A DNA stretch of 58,444 bases from Gammaproteobacteria bacterium (lineage in GTDB: Bacteria; Pseudomonadota; Gammaproteobacteria; Natronospirales; REEB76), in assembly GCA_035279405.1 (NCBI GenBank), contig DATEHU010000055.1:1-58444 (forward strand). The letters are read 5' to 3'. This document shows, one piece after another, positions 1-54,020 of this stretch. The number at the start of each line of letters is the position of its first letter. Within the stretch, counting starts at the first letter, position 1. Under the pieces are notes generated by a model. That model had not been told where the DNA came from. It saw nothing but the letters and a program-made list of their open reading frames with translations, and made no database searches. The position numbers were made by a program, and so were the translations under genes.

Positions 1-431
1 CCCGACCTGCTTCGCAGGCTCTTCCCTGCGGGCGCTGCGCGCTCGGCGCAATCCACGGGGGCCTGAAGAGCAAGAGGCACTGGATGTCGATGCGTTGATT
101 CTTGTACCCGTAGCGCGAGCCGAGCACTGGACTGAGCAAGGCTAAGCCCGAAGGGGCGCGAACAGGATGTTCGCGCTCCCGCCGTCAGGCCAGGGATGGC
201 CTGTCGGCGGGACTCCGCAGCGAAGGAAGCGCGCAGGGCAGTCGCGGTTTCCGGCGACCCGCGCTCCGGGGGAATGGCTTTGGGCACTTTCGCCGAAACG
301 AAAGTGCCACGCCCGCGGGTGCGGGAACCCGCTCTGAAAAACACATGCGGCCTTCGGCCGCACAATTCCGCTCTGGATTCCGGCTTCCGCCGGAATGACG
401 AATGACGGCGGCTGCGGAGCAGCCGCACAAT
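1..431. repeat. mosaic of nested palindromes (no gene)
   Basis: No credible gene lies left of pmbA. At least five perfect hairpins follow one another: 156-176 (9-bp stem, loop GGA), 178-211 (outer 7-bp stem enclosing an inner 7-bp stem), 283-308 (10-bp stem), 346-362 (7-bp stem, loop TTC) and 377-396 (7-bp stem). The second carries the AGGGATGG core seen in repeats of many gammaproteobacterial genomes. The last has the GGATTCCGG...CCGGAATGACG form of a widespread REP-like element. The short reading frames here only follow the repeat. The pmbA stop codon lies immediately to the right, so the array may also act on pmbA transcript ends. Confidence 0.7.
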
Positions 432-14989: not shown

Positions 14990-15150
14990 GGTTCCCCCCT
15001 CCTTTGAAAAAGGAGGGCGAGCTGCGAAGCAGCGAGCGGGTTGCCAGGGACGGCAACCCTGGGCTTTCAGGCGAAGCCGGAATGCGCAGCCTGAAAGGGG
15101 GAGGATTTTCAAAATCCCCCTCAATCCCCCTTTCCCAAAGGCGGATACCC
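14990..15150. repeat. family-C composite element (yhdP-rng gap)
   Basis: The 393-bp gap between yhdP and rng holds an element of ordered blocks. A CTCCTTTGAAAAAGGAG hairpin is followed by a GAGCTGC...GCAGC hairpin, CGAGCGGG, a GTTGCCAGGGACGGCAAC hairpin, CCTGGGCTTTC, GCGCAGCC and a closing GGGGGAGGATTTT arm. A further CCCCCTTTCCCAAAGG follows. The same block order occurs at 25.17-25.51 kb and, reversed, at 52.61-52.83 kb. The remaining 14825-14989 shows no gene. Confidence 0.7.
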
Positions 15151-25030: not shown

Positions 25031-25072
25031 CAGATTCTCCCTGAGAGCACCTGACAAAATGCACTTTCACGG

Positions 25073-25136
25073 AAAATCCCCCACGCGCGAAGCGCGCTTA
25101 CCCCCTTTACAAAAGGGGGTAAAGGGATTTTGAGTC
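25073..25136. repeat. family-B nested palindrome
   Basis: Nested dyad with outer AATCCCC/GGGATTTT arms, a GCGCGAAGCGCGC hairpin and a CCCCCTTTACAAAAGGGGG hairpin. It lies directly behind the 5' end of the O-antigen-ligase-like gene, in the same layout as the copies near 17.47 and 51.90 kb but with the two inner hairpins in the opposite order. Confidence 0.75.
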
Positions 25137-25246
25137 GTAAGTTTCCAACTACTGCCCCTATGCAGATTGCTTCCCCCTTGTGTAAAAGAGGTGAGGAGCG
25201 CAGCTCCGAGCGGGAGACCAGGAAGGCCTCCCTGGACTTTCCGGAC

Positions 25247-25432
25247 GAAGCAGGGTGAGCGGCAATGTTGCGAACGCCCATACAGGATGTATGGGCTGGA
25301 CTTTTGGCGAAGCAGGGTAAGCGGCAACGCCGCGAACGCCCATGCAGGACGCATGGGCTGGGCTTTTGGCGGAGCAGGGTGAGCGGCAAGGCCGCGAACG
25401 CCCATACAGGATGTATGGGCCGGACTTTTGGC
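25247..25432. repeat. three tandem 62-bp units
   Basis: Units begin at 25247, 25309 and 25371, an exact 62-bp period; a truncated fourth starts at 25433. Each has GAAGCAGGGT(G/A)AGCGGCAA, GCGAACGCCCAT, a hairpin with CCCATACA/TGTATGGG arms (CCCATGCA/GCATGGG in unit 2) and a GGACTTTTGGCG tail. The arm changes in unit 2 are compensatory and keep the hairpin, which suggests the fold is maintained. Confidence 0.85.
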
Positions 25433-25443
25433 GAAGCAGGACT

Positions 25444-25482
25444 GCGCAGCCAACAAGCGCAGCCAACAAGCGCAGCCAATAA
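25444..25482. repeat. three tandem 13-bp units
   Basis: GCGCAGCCAACAA occurs twice in tandem and a third time as GCGCAGCCAATAA, immediately after the 62-bp array. The related element near 52.64 kb has only one copy (reverse strand), so copy number differs between loci. Confidence 0.85.
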
Positions 25483-25520
25483 GCGAAGTGCGAAAGAGGG
25501 GGATTTTGAGTGCCTGGTAG

Positions 25521-27092
25521 TCACCGTTGTCGTCTCTTCAGGCGCTGTAGGCTCCCCACCAGAACCAACACCATGCTGATTACCACGATCACGACATTCC
25601 CAAGGCGCACATAGGGCGTACTGCCGGCATACGGTGGTGCGCGTACCGTCAACACGCCGACCTGATCTTCCGGCAGGCGGTCAACCACGCCGCCGTGCGG
25701 GTTCACCACGGCCGTGATGCCCGTATTGGTAGTCCGGAGCAGGTAGCGCCCCGCCTCCAGTGCCCGCATGCGCGAAATCTCGAAATGCTGCGGCAGCGCA
25801 ATCGAATCGCCGAACCAGGCGTCGTTGGTGACGTTCACGAGAAACGCGGCCTCCGGCAAATCCCGCATGATCTCGCTGCCAAAGGCATCTTCGTAACAGA
25901 TGGACGTCGCCACCGGATAACCCGCGACTTTCAGCAACGGTTGACGCGCGGCGCCCGCCGTGAACGACGCATACGGCAGATTGTGCGCTTCCAGCCACGC
26001 GGTCACCCACGCCGGCGCCGGAAAATACTCCGCCATGGGCACAAGGTGGCGCTTGTCGTACACCCCGTCATGCCCCCCAAGGCTGATCACGCTGTTATAG
26101 GCGTCGCCGTTCGACAGATTCTCGGTCAGGATGCCGAGCAGCATGTCCGTGCCGTGAGCGCGCGCCTCCTTCTCAATCGGGTCCAGGTAATCCTTCTGGA
26201 CCTGATCGGCATACGCCGGGATCGCCGCCTCGGGCCAGATAATCACGCGGCTCGACCAGTGCGCGTCCGTGAGATGCAGATAACGCTCCAGCGTCACGGA
26301 AAATTCCTGCGGATCCCATTTGAGGCTCTGCGGAATGTCGCCTTGTATAAGGCTGAATTGGATCGGTGCGCCCGCGGGTCGGGTCCACGAGACCGTCGCC
26401 AAAACTCCGCCGGCAACCCAGACCGCGGCGAGCACGGCGATGGTCACAATCCGGACGCGCCACCCGGCCGACAGCAACACGCTCAGCAACAGGCCGGCGG
26501 ATACCGCTACCGCGAGACTCACACCGTACACGCCCAGCAACGGTGCGTAGCCTTTCAAGGCGCTGCCGATCTGGCTGTAGCCGAGACTCAGCCACGGGAA
26601 ACCGCTCAGCACCCAGCCGCGCAGCCATTCCAGCAATACCCATAGACCGGGCAGCAGCAGGACCCAGCGCCAGGCACTCGCGCGCGGCAGCAGCCAGACA
26701 GCCAGCGCACAGGCAATCGCACTGTACAGCGCCATGGCGACCACCACCGCGACGATCACGAGCATCGTCGCCCATACCGGCGCGCCGCTCACGCTGTGGA
26801 TACTGATATAGAGCCAGTAAAGTCCGAAACCGAATTCGGCAATGCCGAACAGCAATCCGCGCCAGAAAGCGCGGCGCACACTGACGCCGTTCAGCAGCCA
26901 GAACAGCGCCGCAAGCGTAAGCACGGCCAGCGGATAAACGTTGAACGGCGCAAACGCAAACACCGTGAGCGCGCCGAGAATGAGCGCCAGCAAATCGCCA
27001 ATCTTCCCCTGACGAATGCGGCTTTCCCAAGCACGCAGGATTGCGACTCGCCCTCTCTTTCCAAAGATGGGAACAATGTCTCTTGGGCTCAT
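25521..27092 (-). CDS. lnt: apolipoprotein N-acyltransferase
   Basis: A 523-residue inner-membrane enzyme that adds the third acyl chain to lipoproteins. An N-terminal block of about seven membrane helices (FAFAPFNVYPLAVLTLAALF, WLRGWVLSGFPWLSLGYSQI) is followed by a periplasmic nitrilase domain. Its triad fits Glu in IIWPEAAIPAY, Lys in YDKRHLVPMAEYFP and Cys in SICYEDAFG. A last membrane helix lies at the C-terminus. The ATG at 27092 is taken as start; a GTG at 27110 is also in frame, just inside the neighbouring repeat. In the conserved order it follows corC, but a repeat cluster lies between the two. Confidence 0.96.
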   Translation of the reverse strand: MSPRDIVPIFGKRGRVAILRAWESRIRQGKIGDLLALILGALTVFAFAPFNVYPLAVLTLAALFWLLNGVSVRRAFWRGLLFGIAEFGFGLYWLYISIHSVSGAPVWATMLVIVAVVVAMALYSAIACALAVWLLPRASAWRWVLLLPGLWVLLEWLRGWVLSGFPWLSLGYSQIGSALKGYAPLLGVYGVSLAVAVSAGLLLSVLLSAGWRVRIVTIAVLAAVWVAGGVLATVSWTRPAGAPIQFSLIQGDIPQSLKWDPQEFSVTLERYLHLTDAHWSSRVIIWPEAAIPAYADQVQKDYLDPIEKEARAHGTDMLLGILTENLSNGDAYNSVISLGGHDGVYDKRHLVPMAEYFPAPAWVTAWLEAHNLPYASFTAGAARQPLLKVAGYPVATSICYEDAFGSEIMRDLPEAAFLVNVTNDAWFGDSIALPQHFEISRMRALEAGRYLLRTTNTGITAVVNPHGGVVDRLPEDQVGVLTVRAPPYAGSTPYVRLGNVVIVVISMVLVLVGSLQRLKRRQR

Positions 27093-52443: not shown

Positions 52444-52609
52444 GGCTTGTCCCTCGCCGGTCGGTAGTATGACCGTGCATCTGTTTTGCGCCGGGGGTGG
52501 CTATTTTACGGGAAAACCCCGGGTTGAACAGGTGATGCAGGTGAAAGCCACTGCCAAAAGATGGCATGGGGAGTCGCAGAAGTTGCCAACTATAAATGCC
52601 GGACATTGC

Positions 52610-52833
52610 AAATCCCCCCTTTCGGACTTCGCTTGTTGGCTGCGCAGTCGTGCTCCGCCAAAAGTCCGGCCCATGCGTCCTGCATGGGCGTTCGCGGCGT
52701 TGCCGCTTACCCTGCTTCATCCGAAAGTCCAGGGCAGCCGTCGTGGCTGCCCGCTCGGCGCTTGGCGCCTCGCCCCCCTTTTTCAAAGGGGGGAAACGCG
52801 ATTCACGCCTCATCCCCCTTTTCCAAAGGGGGA
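52610..52833. repeat. family-C composite element, single-unit form (reverse)
   Basis: Fills the ssb-MFS gap. On the minus strand the block order is CCCCCTTTGGAAAAGGGGG, CCCCCCTTTGAAAAAGGGGG, a GAGGCGCCAAGCGCC stretch, CGAGCGGG, a GGCAGCC...GGCTGCC hairpin, CCTGGACTTTC, one 62-bp-type unit (CCCATGCA/GCATGGG hairpin), one GCGCAGCCAACAA unit and a GGGGGGATTTGCAA arm. It is the single-copy counterpart of 25165-25510. Its right edge (52803-52833) is used as the last codons of the MFS gene. Confidence 0.8.
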
Positions 52834-54020
52834 GAGCGTCTGGCTGCGGGCGGCCGCATGAACCAGGCCGCCAGCCACCAGAGCGCCGCGAGCGCGGCAC
52901 AGAATCCGAACACGCCGTTCAGGCCCCACGTGCCTTCGACCCAGCCGCCGAGCACGCCGCCGACGAATATCCCGAAAAACTGCGAGGAAGAATACACGCC
53001 CATAGCCGTGCCCTTGGCATCGTCCGGCGCGCGGCGCGAGATGAGCGACGGCAGTACCGATTCGAGCACGTTGAAGCCGGTGAAGAACACCAGCAAGGCC
53101 AGGACCACCAGCGGCAGGCTCGCGCGCCCGAACAGCAACAGCAGCTGGCCGGCGGCCAGCAGTGCGACCGAGACGAGGAATACGGCTTTCATGCGCCCGC
53201 GCTCCGCCAAAATAATCAGCGGCACAAGAAATGCCACCGAGACGACAAGCACCGGCAGATACACGTACCACTGATCGGGCAGCGCGATGCCGGCCTGGCG
53301 GAGCACGAAGGGCACGCTCAGGAAACTCGCGGTCAGTATCGCGTGCTGGATGAAGATGCCGAAATCCAGGCGTTGCAGTTCGCGGTCCGCGAGTACGCGC
53401 TTGAAGAGCGCCGGCACCGCTTCCGTCTCGGCATGCAGTTTGGGGGCGGCCGGACGCGGCACCAGCGCGTAGAGCACCAGGATGCCGAGCGCCGCGAGCA
53501 CCGCGGTCAGCCAGAAGATGCCGCGCACCCCGATCCATCCGTTCAGCACTGGGCCCACGACCACCGCCAGGCCGAAGGACGCACCGATGGTCATGCCGAT
53601 GATCGCCATGGCTTTGGTACGATGTTCCGCACGCGTGAGATCCGCGGCGAGCGCCAGCACCGCCGAGCCTACCGCGCCCGCGCCCTGCAACAAGCGGCCA
53701 AGCACGATGCCGTAGATCGAGGGCGAAAGCGCCGCAATCACGCTGCCGATCACGAACAGCACCAGGCCCGCGGCAATCACGCGCTTGCGGCCAATGCGGT
53801 CGGAAAGAAAACCGAAGGGAATCTGTAGCAACGCCTGGGTAAGGCCGTAGATGCCGAGCGCGAGGCCGATGGTGACGGCCGTGGCATCCGGCAGGGTCCG
53901 GGCCCAGGGCGCAAACACCGGGTAGATCATGAACAGCCCGAGCATGCGCAGCGAGAAAATGCCGGCCAGCGACAAGGCGGCGCGGCGTTCGGTGCCGGTC
54001 ATGGAAGCGGTTTTTGTCAT
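52803..54020 (-). CDS. MFS transporter (drug/multisubstrate efflux type)
   Basis: A 405-residue major-facilitator protein with 12 predicted helices. Motif A is FGFLSDRIGRKRVIAAG between helices 2 and 3, and LGRLLQGAGAVGSAVLALAA with the conserved Arg/Gln lies in helix 4. It resembles the YajR-like antiporters found beside ssb/uvrA in gammaproteobacteria; the substrate is unknown. The ATG at 54020 is taken, with a second ATG at 54002 possible; neither has a good Shine-Dalgarno. The last ten residues (SPPLEKGDEA) and the stop codon are encoded by the arm of a family-C repeat, so the original C-terminus has been replaced. Confidence 0.88.
   Translation of the reverse strand: MTKTASMTGTERRAALSLAGIFSLRMLGLFMIYPVFAPWARTLPDATAVTIGLALGIYGLTQALLQIPFGFLSDRIGRKRVIAAGLVLFVIGSVIAALSPSIYGIVLGRLLQGAGAVGSAVLALAADLTRAEHRTKAMAIIGMTIGASFGLAVVVGPVLNGWIGVRGIFWLTAVLAALGILVLYALVPRPAAPKLHAETEAVPALFKRVLADRELQRLDFGIFIQHAILTASFLSVPFVLRQAGIALPDQWYVYLPVLVVSVAFLVPLIILAERGRMKAVFLVSVALLAAGQLLLLFGRASLPLVVLALLVFFTGFNVLESVLPSLISRRAPDDAKGTAMGVYSSSQFFGIFVGGVLGGWVEGTWGLNGVFGFCAALAALWWLAAWFMRPPAARRSPPLEKGDEA

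Follow-up and report, generated by a model that had tools for sequence, protein, structure and literature searches.

The modular repeat found around 25 kb in the window, the 58,444-nucleotide stretch of DNA that was analysed here, is best explained as a composite of two layers: a MITE chassis of the IS5 family, and hairpin modules that enter loops and are nested in one another. We assign this reading a probability of about 0.72. The observations behind it concern the structure of the module, the TIRs and TSDs of the chassis, empty sites in related species, an autonomous IS, and the position and orientation of the modules. The window corresponds to contig C55 of a 2.46-Mb draft genome of 59 contigs, which we refer to as the own genome (G000). 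The initial annotation had proposed a non-coding, composite element whose evolution proceeds through exchange and amplification of hairpin modules. This outline stands, and the element is now tied to a mobile IS5-type MITE chassis by TSDs, empty sites and an autonomous relative.

The repeat had originally been placed between positions 25165 and 25510. The sequences taken as its ends, CCCCCTTT and GGGGGATTTT, delimit only an inner core, and the left TIR and the orthologous empty sites place the true insertion at approximately 25045-25547. The element and its chassis contain the following features:

25045-25547 (503 bp), plus strand: whole composite element, an IS5-type MITE chassis with nested hairpin modules, the left end being the TIR of the MITE family
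25042-25044, no strand: TGA as the putative target trinucleotide on the left, with TAG on the right (25548-25550); the duplication is not intact
25045-25061, plus strand: left TIR, GAGCACCTGACAAAATG, read by eye and in agreement with the empty-site boundary
25073-25131, plus strand: first C-run/hairpin/G-run foldback of the chassis, AAAATCCCCC...GGGATTTT, as read in the sequence; the basic module-free MITEs L040 and L046 have the same layout
25173-25508, plus strand: second C-run ... G-run ... GGGGGATTTT core, which brackets the modules; the same bracket, with modules in the spacer, is present at many loci
25531-25547, minus strand: decayed right TIR, agreeing at ~10 of 17 positions with the consensus right end CATTTTGTTAGACGCTC when compared by eye

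The element begins with the inverted repeat GAGCRYCTRACAAAATG, and its left TIR has more than two mismatches to the family core, GCGTCTAACAAAATG. The site is empty in four related species (G003, G005, G006 and G007), in which the O-antigen-ligase gene and lnt lie 507-513 bp closer together. Alignment of the orthologous sites showed that the piece missing from these genomes falls at the left TIR. At the other end, the 3' end of lnt coincides in part with the decayed right TIR, which stops just short of the empty-site boundary, and the lnt stop codon (25521-25523) is located inside the element. The MITE end (25521-25547 of the window) thereby supplies the last codons and the stop codon of lnt, encoding apolipoprotein N-acyltransferase; in relatives without the MITE, lnt ends differently. 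In the named organisms with the closest lnt (~48% identity; for the most part gammaproteobacterial MAGs), no convincing module was detected at that locus.

When up to two mismatches were allowed, the TIR core was found at 24 places in the genome, as compared with two for a reversed control pattern, and the outer sequence GAGCGTCTAACAAAATG, in inverted orientation, is common to many of the loci that bear modules. The same ends also bound module-free elements of ~130 bp (L039, L040, L041, L045 and L046). Among the TIR-bounded elements of the genus, 22 of 31 are flanked by an exact 3-bp TSD, versus 32% expected with swapped flanks; this TSD is nearly always TTA or TAA, and TTG in one case. A complete IS of 891 bp having the same TIRs is present in G001 (two copies) and in G008. 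It encodes DUF4096 and DDE_Tnp_1 parts, with an A7 stretch where the two frames join, and NCBIfam NF033580 assigns it to the IS5 family. IS5-type transposition of the chassis is thus well supported, and the 25-kb repeat is a non-autonomous IS5-family element, a kind of element that is already known: the TIRs are shared with an autonomous element, the family has a short TSD and empty sites exist. Three points count against this layer at 25 kb itself, namely the decayed right TIR, the TSD that is not intact, and the absence of any present copy of the 891-bp autonomous IS from the own genome. Elsewhere in that genome, a locus with the same IS5-type TIRs and a TTA duplication (L043, G000:C26:196434-196592) has a core consisting of the GTGGGAGCGACCGTCGC repeat, and hence the chassis also carries unrelated foldbacks.

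The core of the MITE is a C-run/G-run/G-run foldback, a sequence pattern that would make it of the intrastrand-triplex kind. The published consensus for such triplexes is CCCTCNCCC-N3-6-GGGNGAGGG-N3-GGGNGAGGG (PMC4666352). The sequence CCCCCCTTTGCAAAGGGGGG-ATAA-GGGGGGATTT, or a close variant of it, is found in MITEs that lack modules, and the C-strand, the G-strand and the second G-strand, separated by short loops, are all present in L040, L046 and L309. The MITE core CCCTCTCCCTTGGTGGGAGAGGGTTGGGGTGAGGG of G007 fits the published consensus, and L309 of that genome, which is grouped with the MITEs L312 and L315, has the exact pattern CCCTCNCCC-N-GGGNGAGGG-N3-GGGNGAGGG. At 25 kb the G-rich core is partly decayed. 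The study that described these motifs (TM_ECO / PIT) reported them to be abundant and found no association with mobile elements (PMC4666352), whereas here the motif lies between IS5 TIRs and, at other loci, its second spacer holds modules.

After reading 36 related places, we found that every block is part of one unit of ~80 nt, in which the order is H1, H2, the linker TGGAC and H3. H1 has a GAA-type triloop between its arms, the arms of H2 enclose CA(N)GGAYG, and H3 reads CTTTCnGGC GAAGCAGGATTGCGAAG CCnGAAAG. Twenty-one units, belonging to three subtypes (A, B and C), could be aligned over their whole length. In the structure so defined, 92.1% of the cells are paired, versus 69.4 +/- 1.2% after shuffling and 28-45% when the structure is slid. 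Double changes affect 18 of the 27 pairs, and 129 double-change cells were observed where 39.9 +/- 4.9 are expected, which bears out the claim that the hairpin arms change in a compensated way. The MFE fold of the whole 503 bp is a different structure that is partly cross-paired; the nested fold therefore rests on comparison between copies and not on the MFE. The 62-bp and 13-bp sequences had been regarded as two separate blocks, but both belong to one module of ~78 nt, the former as its 5' part and the latter as its 3' closing arm.

A covariance model (R1) gave 71 module matches in the own genome at E<=0.01. Genome-wide, the module is therefore not confined to the three loci described at first. 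A wider search covering 56 genomes revealed that the module is present in all members of the genus and, with 31 copies, in the sole other genus of the family; beyond the family there are a few in the order, and modules are rare elsewhere in the class. For the window, no Rfam family reached the gathering threshold. The modules detected in the window are arranged as follows:

148-211, plus strand: weak, degenerate module (26.6 bits, E 2e-4)
15018-15097, plus strand: single module A in the CTCCTTTGAAAAAGGAGGG...GGGGGAGGATTTT core of the 15-kb locus (91 bits, E 5e-19)
25192-25496, plus strand: outer module A, with H1, H2, TGGAC and the 5' arm of H3 at 25192-25254 and the 3' arm of H3 at 25483-25496
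25256-25317, plus strand: 5' part of C module 1, corresponding to the first 62-bp unit, with loop ACAGGATGT (41.6 bits, truncated loop)
25318-25379, plus strand: 5' part of C module 2, corresponding to the second 62-bp unit, of another subtype (GCAGGACGC and GGCGGAGC)
25380-25457, plus strand: complete C module 3, corresponding to the third 62-bp unit with its own 3' arm (79.4 bits, full length)
25444-25482, plus strand: the three 13-bp units, which are H3 3' arms starting at 25444, 25457 and 25470
52632-52709, minus strand: C module occupying the H3 loop of the element at 52.6 kb (74.3 bits)
52706-52772, minus strand: 5' part of the outer module A of the 52.6-kb element (47.3 bits)

At 25 kb, the H3 loop of the outer module A holds the C modules, and the covariance-model match to A covers 25192-25250 (41.9 bits), the loop being skipped. 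The 62-bp units of this locus are 87-93% identical and follow each other at a spacing of 62, and the 13-bp units at a spacing of 13. The unit counts given earlier were recovered, with three of each unit at 25 kb and one of each on the minus strand at 52.6 kb. At 15 kb the shared outer blocks were indeed present, but instead of a replaced inner part this locus contains a simple, unexpanded module. The 52.6-kb composite (52560-52840 of the window) is also present in G004, at the same site and with the same flank (L273, G004:C123); because the two genomes share it at one site, this copy would predate the split of the two species.

Judged from the sequences, there is a strong pattern of modules entering loops behind GG. 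GGG directly precedes 135 of the 147 complete modules in the own genome and its relatives. The second spacer of the C-run/G-run/G-run core houses 40 modules. Another 18 are found in an H3 loop (CTTTCGGACGAAGCAGGG-module-CGAAGTCCGAAAG), the outer stem being re-formed by most of their flanks, and a further 34 occupy an H2-like loop, with flank stems in 34 of 72 cases versus 14.9 with swapped flanks (maximum 22); these location classes are approximate, some clear H2 cases having been binned elsewhere by the rule used, and the nested copies do not count as independent events, composites being spread as units. All modules in triplex spacers and H3 loops have one orientation. In each host, 2-4 nt of the empty loop (AT, ATT or ATAA) are absent, and these missing nucleotides count against the best explanation because simple transposition would not explain them.

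Modules also occur in other surroundings. Several (L133, L097, L239, L272 and L282) lie within GTGGGAGCGGCGATGACCGCCATGGG-module-GCGGAAATGCAGATTTTGC or variants thereof, a host that is another kind of repeat found in several genomes of the genus. Many stand-alone modules adjoin tRNA genes: L142 (G000:C59:66243), L128 (C11:8358), L131 (C17:59813) and L135 (C34:85280), and also L130, L134, L140, L141 and L124. A piece of the tRNA gene appears to be duplicated beyond the module, being the 3' end in L142 and L128 and the 5' part in L131 and L135, an arrangement reminiscent of integration at the tRNA ends or of amplification together with them.

According to the two-layer reading, an IS5-type transposase, presumably acting in trans, would recognise the inverted end repeat GAGCRYCTAACAAAATG of the MITE and insert it at TNA with a 3-bp duplication, and the autonomous parent would be the 891-bp IS that still resides in two sister species. 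In the second layer, the three-hairpin module would have entered the spacer of the C-run/G-run/G-run core. Its copies would insert into the loops of hairpins, the GGA loops of modules already present among them, invariably on one strand and directly after (N)GGG, and would replace 2-4 nucleotides of the loop. Since the loop motif is carried by two of the module's own hairpins, a module could embed in itself, giving module-in-module nests. No enzyme for module insertion was found, which counts against this explanation. Nesting is the simplest reading of the element at 25 kb, which can be written as A(C(C(C))), the 5' parts being the three 62-bp units and the 3' arms the three 13-bp units that come after them. 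Insertion of a C module into the H3 loop of another C module would raise both unit counts together.

Another possibility, to which we give appreciably less weight, is that the 62-bp and 13-bp units at 25 kb changed in number by tandem duplication or slippage of the ordinary kind and without nested insertion. Both units are arranged head-to-tail, as tandem duplication would have it. Of 17 loci, 14 have 62-bp and 13-bp units in a ratio of 1:1, and the others are the 25-kb locus (3:3), L262 (1:2) and L248 (1:3); the equal counts at 15 of the 17 loci argue against slippage, whereas the 13-mers of L262 and L248 vary alone, so that the short arm can multiply by itself. Equal counts were also considered as a proof of nesting, but this fails at L248 and L262, and at 25 kb they are consistent with nesting without proving it. 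Two further points disfavour tandem duplication. At 25 kb, the middle 62-bp unit shares its subtype with the 52.6-kb locus whereas both neighbours belong to the other subtype, which is unlike a simple tandem duplication, and at 18 loci the first C in A is clearly located within the H3 loop. We infer that modules are gained by insertion and not through recombination between copies. Recombination could also move modules between hosts, since the G-runs and module arms give homology, and either recombination or slippage may have contributed to the triple array at 25 kb.

The modules might in addition have a function as RNA, a proposal that is compatible with a mobile-element origin and that we consider doubtful. 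Two hairpin loops of each module match the CsrA/RsmA site (CANGGAYG, CAGGAUUG), and transcribed arrays would titrate CsrA as CsrB and RsmZ do. The CsrA SELEX consensus is RUACARGGAUGU in a hexaloop, CsrB repeats read CAGGA(U/A/C)G, and CsrA bridges sites 10-63 nt apart (PMC7652899); the GGAs of a module are ~31 nt apart. Multiple A(N)GGA hairpin loops, a trait of Csr/Rsm sponges, are present in the modules, with GGA in the H2 loop of 132 and in the H3 apical region of 141 of the 146 unique modules, although these counts are biased because the covariance model was trained on these loops. Moreover, csrA is present in G000 and most relatives, and RsmZ did not score above the cut-off in the genus (13 genomes). 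Weak Rfam matches, including RsmW, were obtained on L123 and L139, but these scores are below gathering (29 bits versus 52 for RsmW), and no Csr/Rsm sRNA family matched at the curated Rfam cut-off. The orientation of flanking genes, considered as a possible indication of transcription, is without clear bias (38 of 62 in sense with the upstream gene, p 0.10), two of the three loci in the window are antisense to their neighbours, and the 8-bp stems exceed those of most SELEX hairpins. A pair of modules is located ~1.5 kb from csrA in G000, G002 and G004, apparently at one shared site (G000:C17:230790-232673), and another module lies ~0.2 kb from csrA in G007 (G007:C58:45292-45748); with tens of modules per genome, this proximity may be due to chance. 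The still bolder combination, which we hold to be slightly less probable again, is that a self-embedding mobile hairpin carrying its own insertion site (the GGA loops) would build recursive, expandable CsrA-type arrays in triplex-core MITEs, and would thus constitute a CsrA sponge that is spread by transposons and tunable by copy number.

As to the enzyme, the initial annotation had pointed to a RAYT-type transposase, which would make the modules REP-like units moved as single-stranded DNA by a RAYT/Y1 tyrosine transposase. The modules are hairpin units with an intergenic location, a fixed orientation and loops as targets, and the own genome has four Y1_Tnp genes. Against this, G011 (100% complete) has 31 modules and G004 (80% complete) has 42, both without Y1_Tnp, some genomes have Y1 genes yet no modules, and a scan of 33 Y1 loci detected no module within ~1.5 kb of them. 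The Y1 genes of the own genome are bordered by different inverted repeats, e.g., AAANGGGGTCAGAGCGAAT, and the module consensus has no GTAG/CGTC tag by a hairpin, TGGAC being the sequence that adjoins H2. The link did not survive this check, and RAYT enzymes are unlikely as module movers. The RAYT-like genes of L032-L034 in G000 are flanked by the inverted repeats AAANGGGGTCAGAGCGAAT and GAAAAGGGGTCAGTACCC, and the Y1_Tnp copy in L031 (G000) has an internal TGA.

That the blocks are independent and share their order by chance, the outcome that would have overturned the initial annotation, can be dismissed: no supporting point was found, and it is contradicted by the covariation, the fixed GGG flank and the same order in copies from the own genome (71) and from relatives (more than 75), an order that is fixed because each block belongs to one three-hairpin module.

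Several known systems resemble parts of the element. BrickBuilt, an IS5-family MITE of Porphyromonas gingivalis (PMC4596501), is also intergenic, shares its TIRs with an IS5-family IS, has internal repeats that vary in number, and at one locus is a MITE inserted in a MITE. BrickBuilt holds a 23-nt tandem minisatellite, whereas the elements described here have a triplex-type core with covarying, loop-nested three-hairpin modules, and their TSD is of 3 bp (TTA/TAA). The BOX elements of Streptococcus (PMC3049150) are boxA-boxB(n)-boxC composites, and the combination of constant end modules and variable inner modules is found here too. However, boxB forms a head-to-tail array, while in the elements studied here the next module separates the 5' part of an inner module from its 3' arm, and a single fold is common to all modules. 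REP/BIME and REPIN sequences with RAYT (PMC3733652, PMC2817692, PMC3116915) are likewise intergenic hairpin units, present in tens of copies and combined into larger structures; in contrast, the present module has three hairpins in ~80 nt, lacks a GTAG/CGTC tag and is not associated with RAYT. IS1397, ISKpn1, IS621 and ISPpu9 use palindromes (REP) as specific insertion targets (PMC1525189), but the insert in our case is a non-coding hairpin module of ~80 nt that is its own target. Finally, the CsrB, RsmZ and RsmW sRNAs contain repeated hairpins with A(N)GGA loops, whereas the modules are scattered over the genome, score below the Rfam cut-offs and are known here from DNA sequence.

MITEs with inner repeats, modular BOX elements and insertion into palindromes are therefore already known. 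The loop-in-loop build, within triplex-type DNA and with loops resembling CsrA sites, appears to be new, and loop-in-loop embedding of one covarying module family in triplex-core IS5 MITEs was not found in the open-access literature that was searched. A composite repeat in which modules lie in each other's hairpin loops in a fixed orientation makes loop-targeted insertion directly testable, and the IS5-type TIRs with their TSDs offer a concrete route by which intrastrand-triplex motifs spread. Should CsrA bind the GGA loops, a global regulator would be tuned by a mobile repeat.
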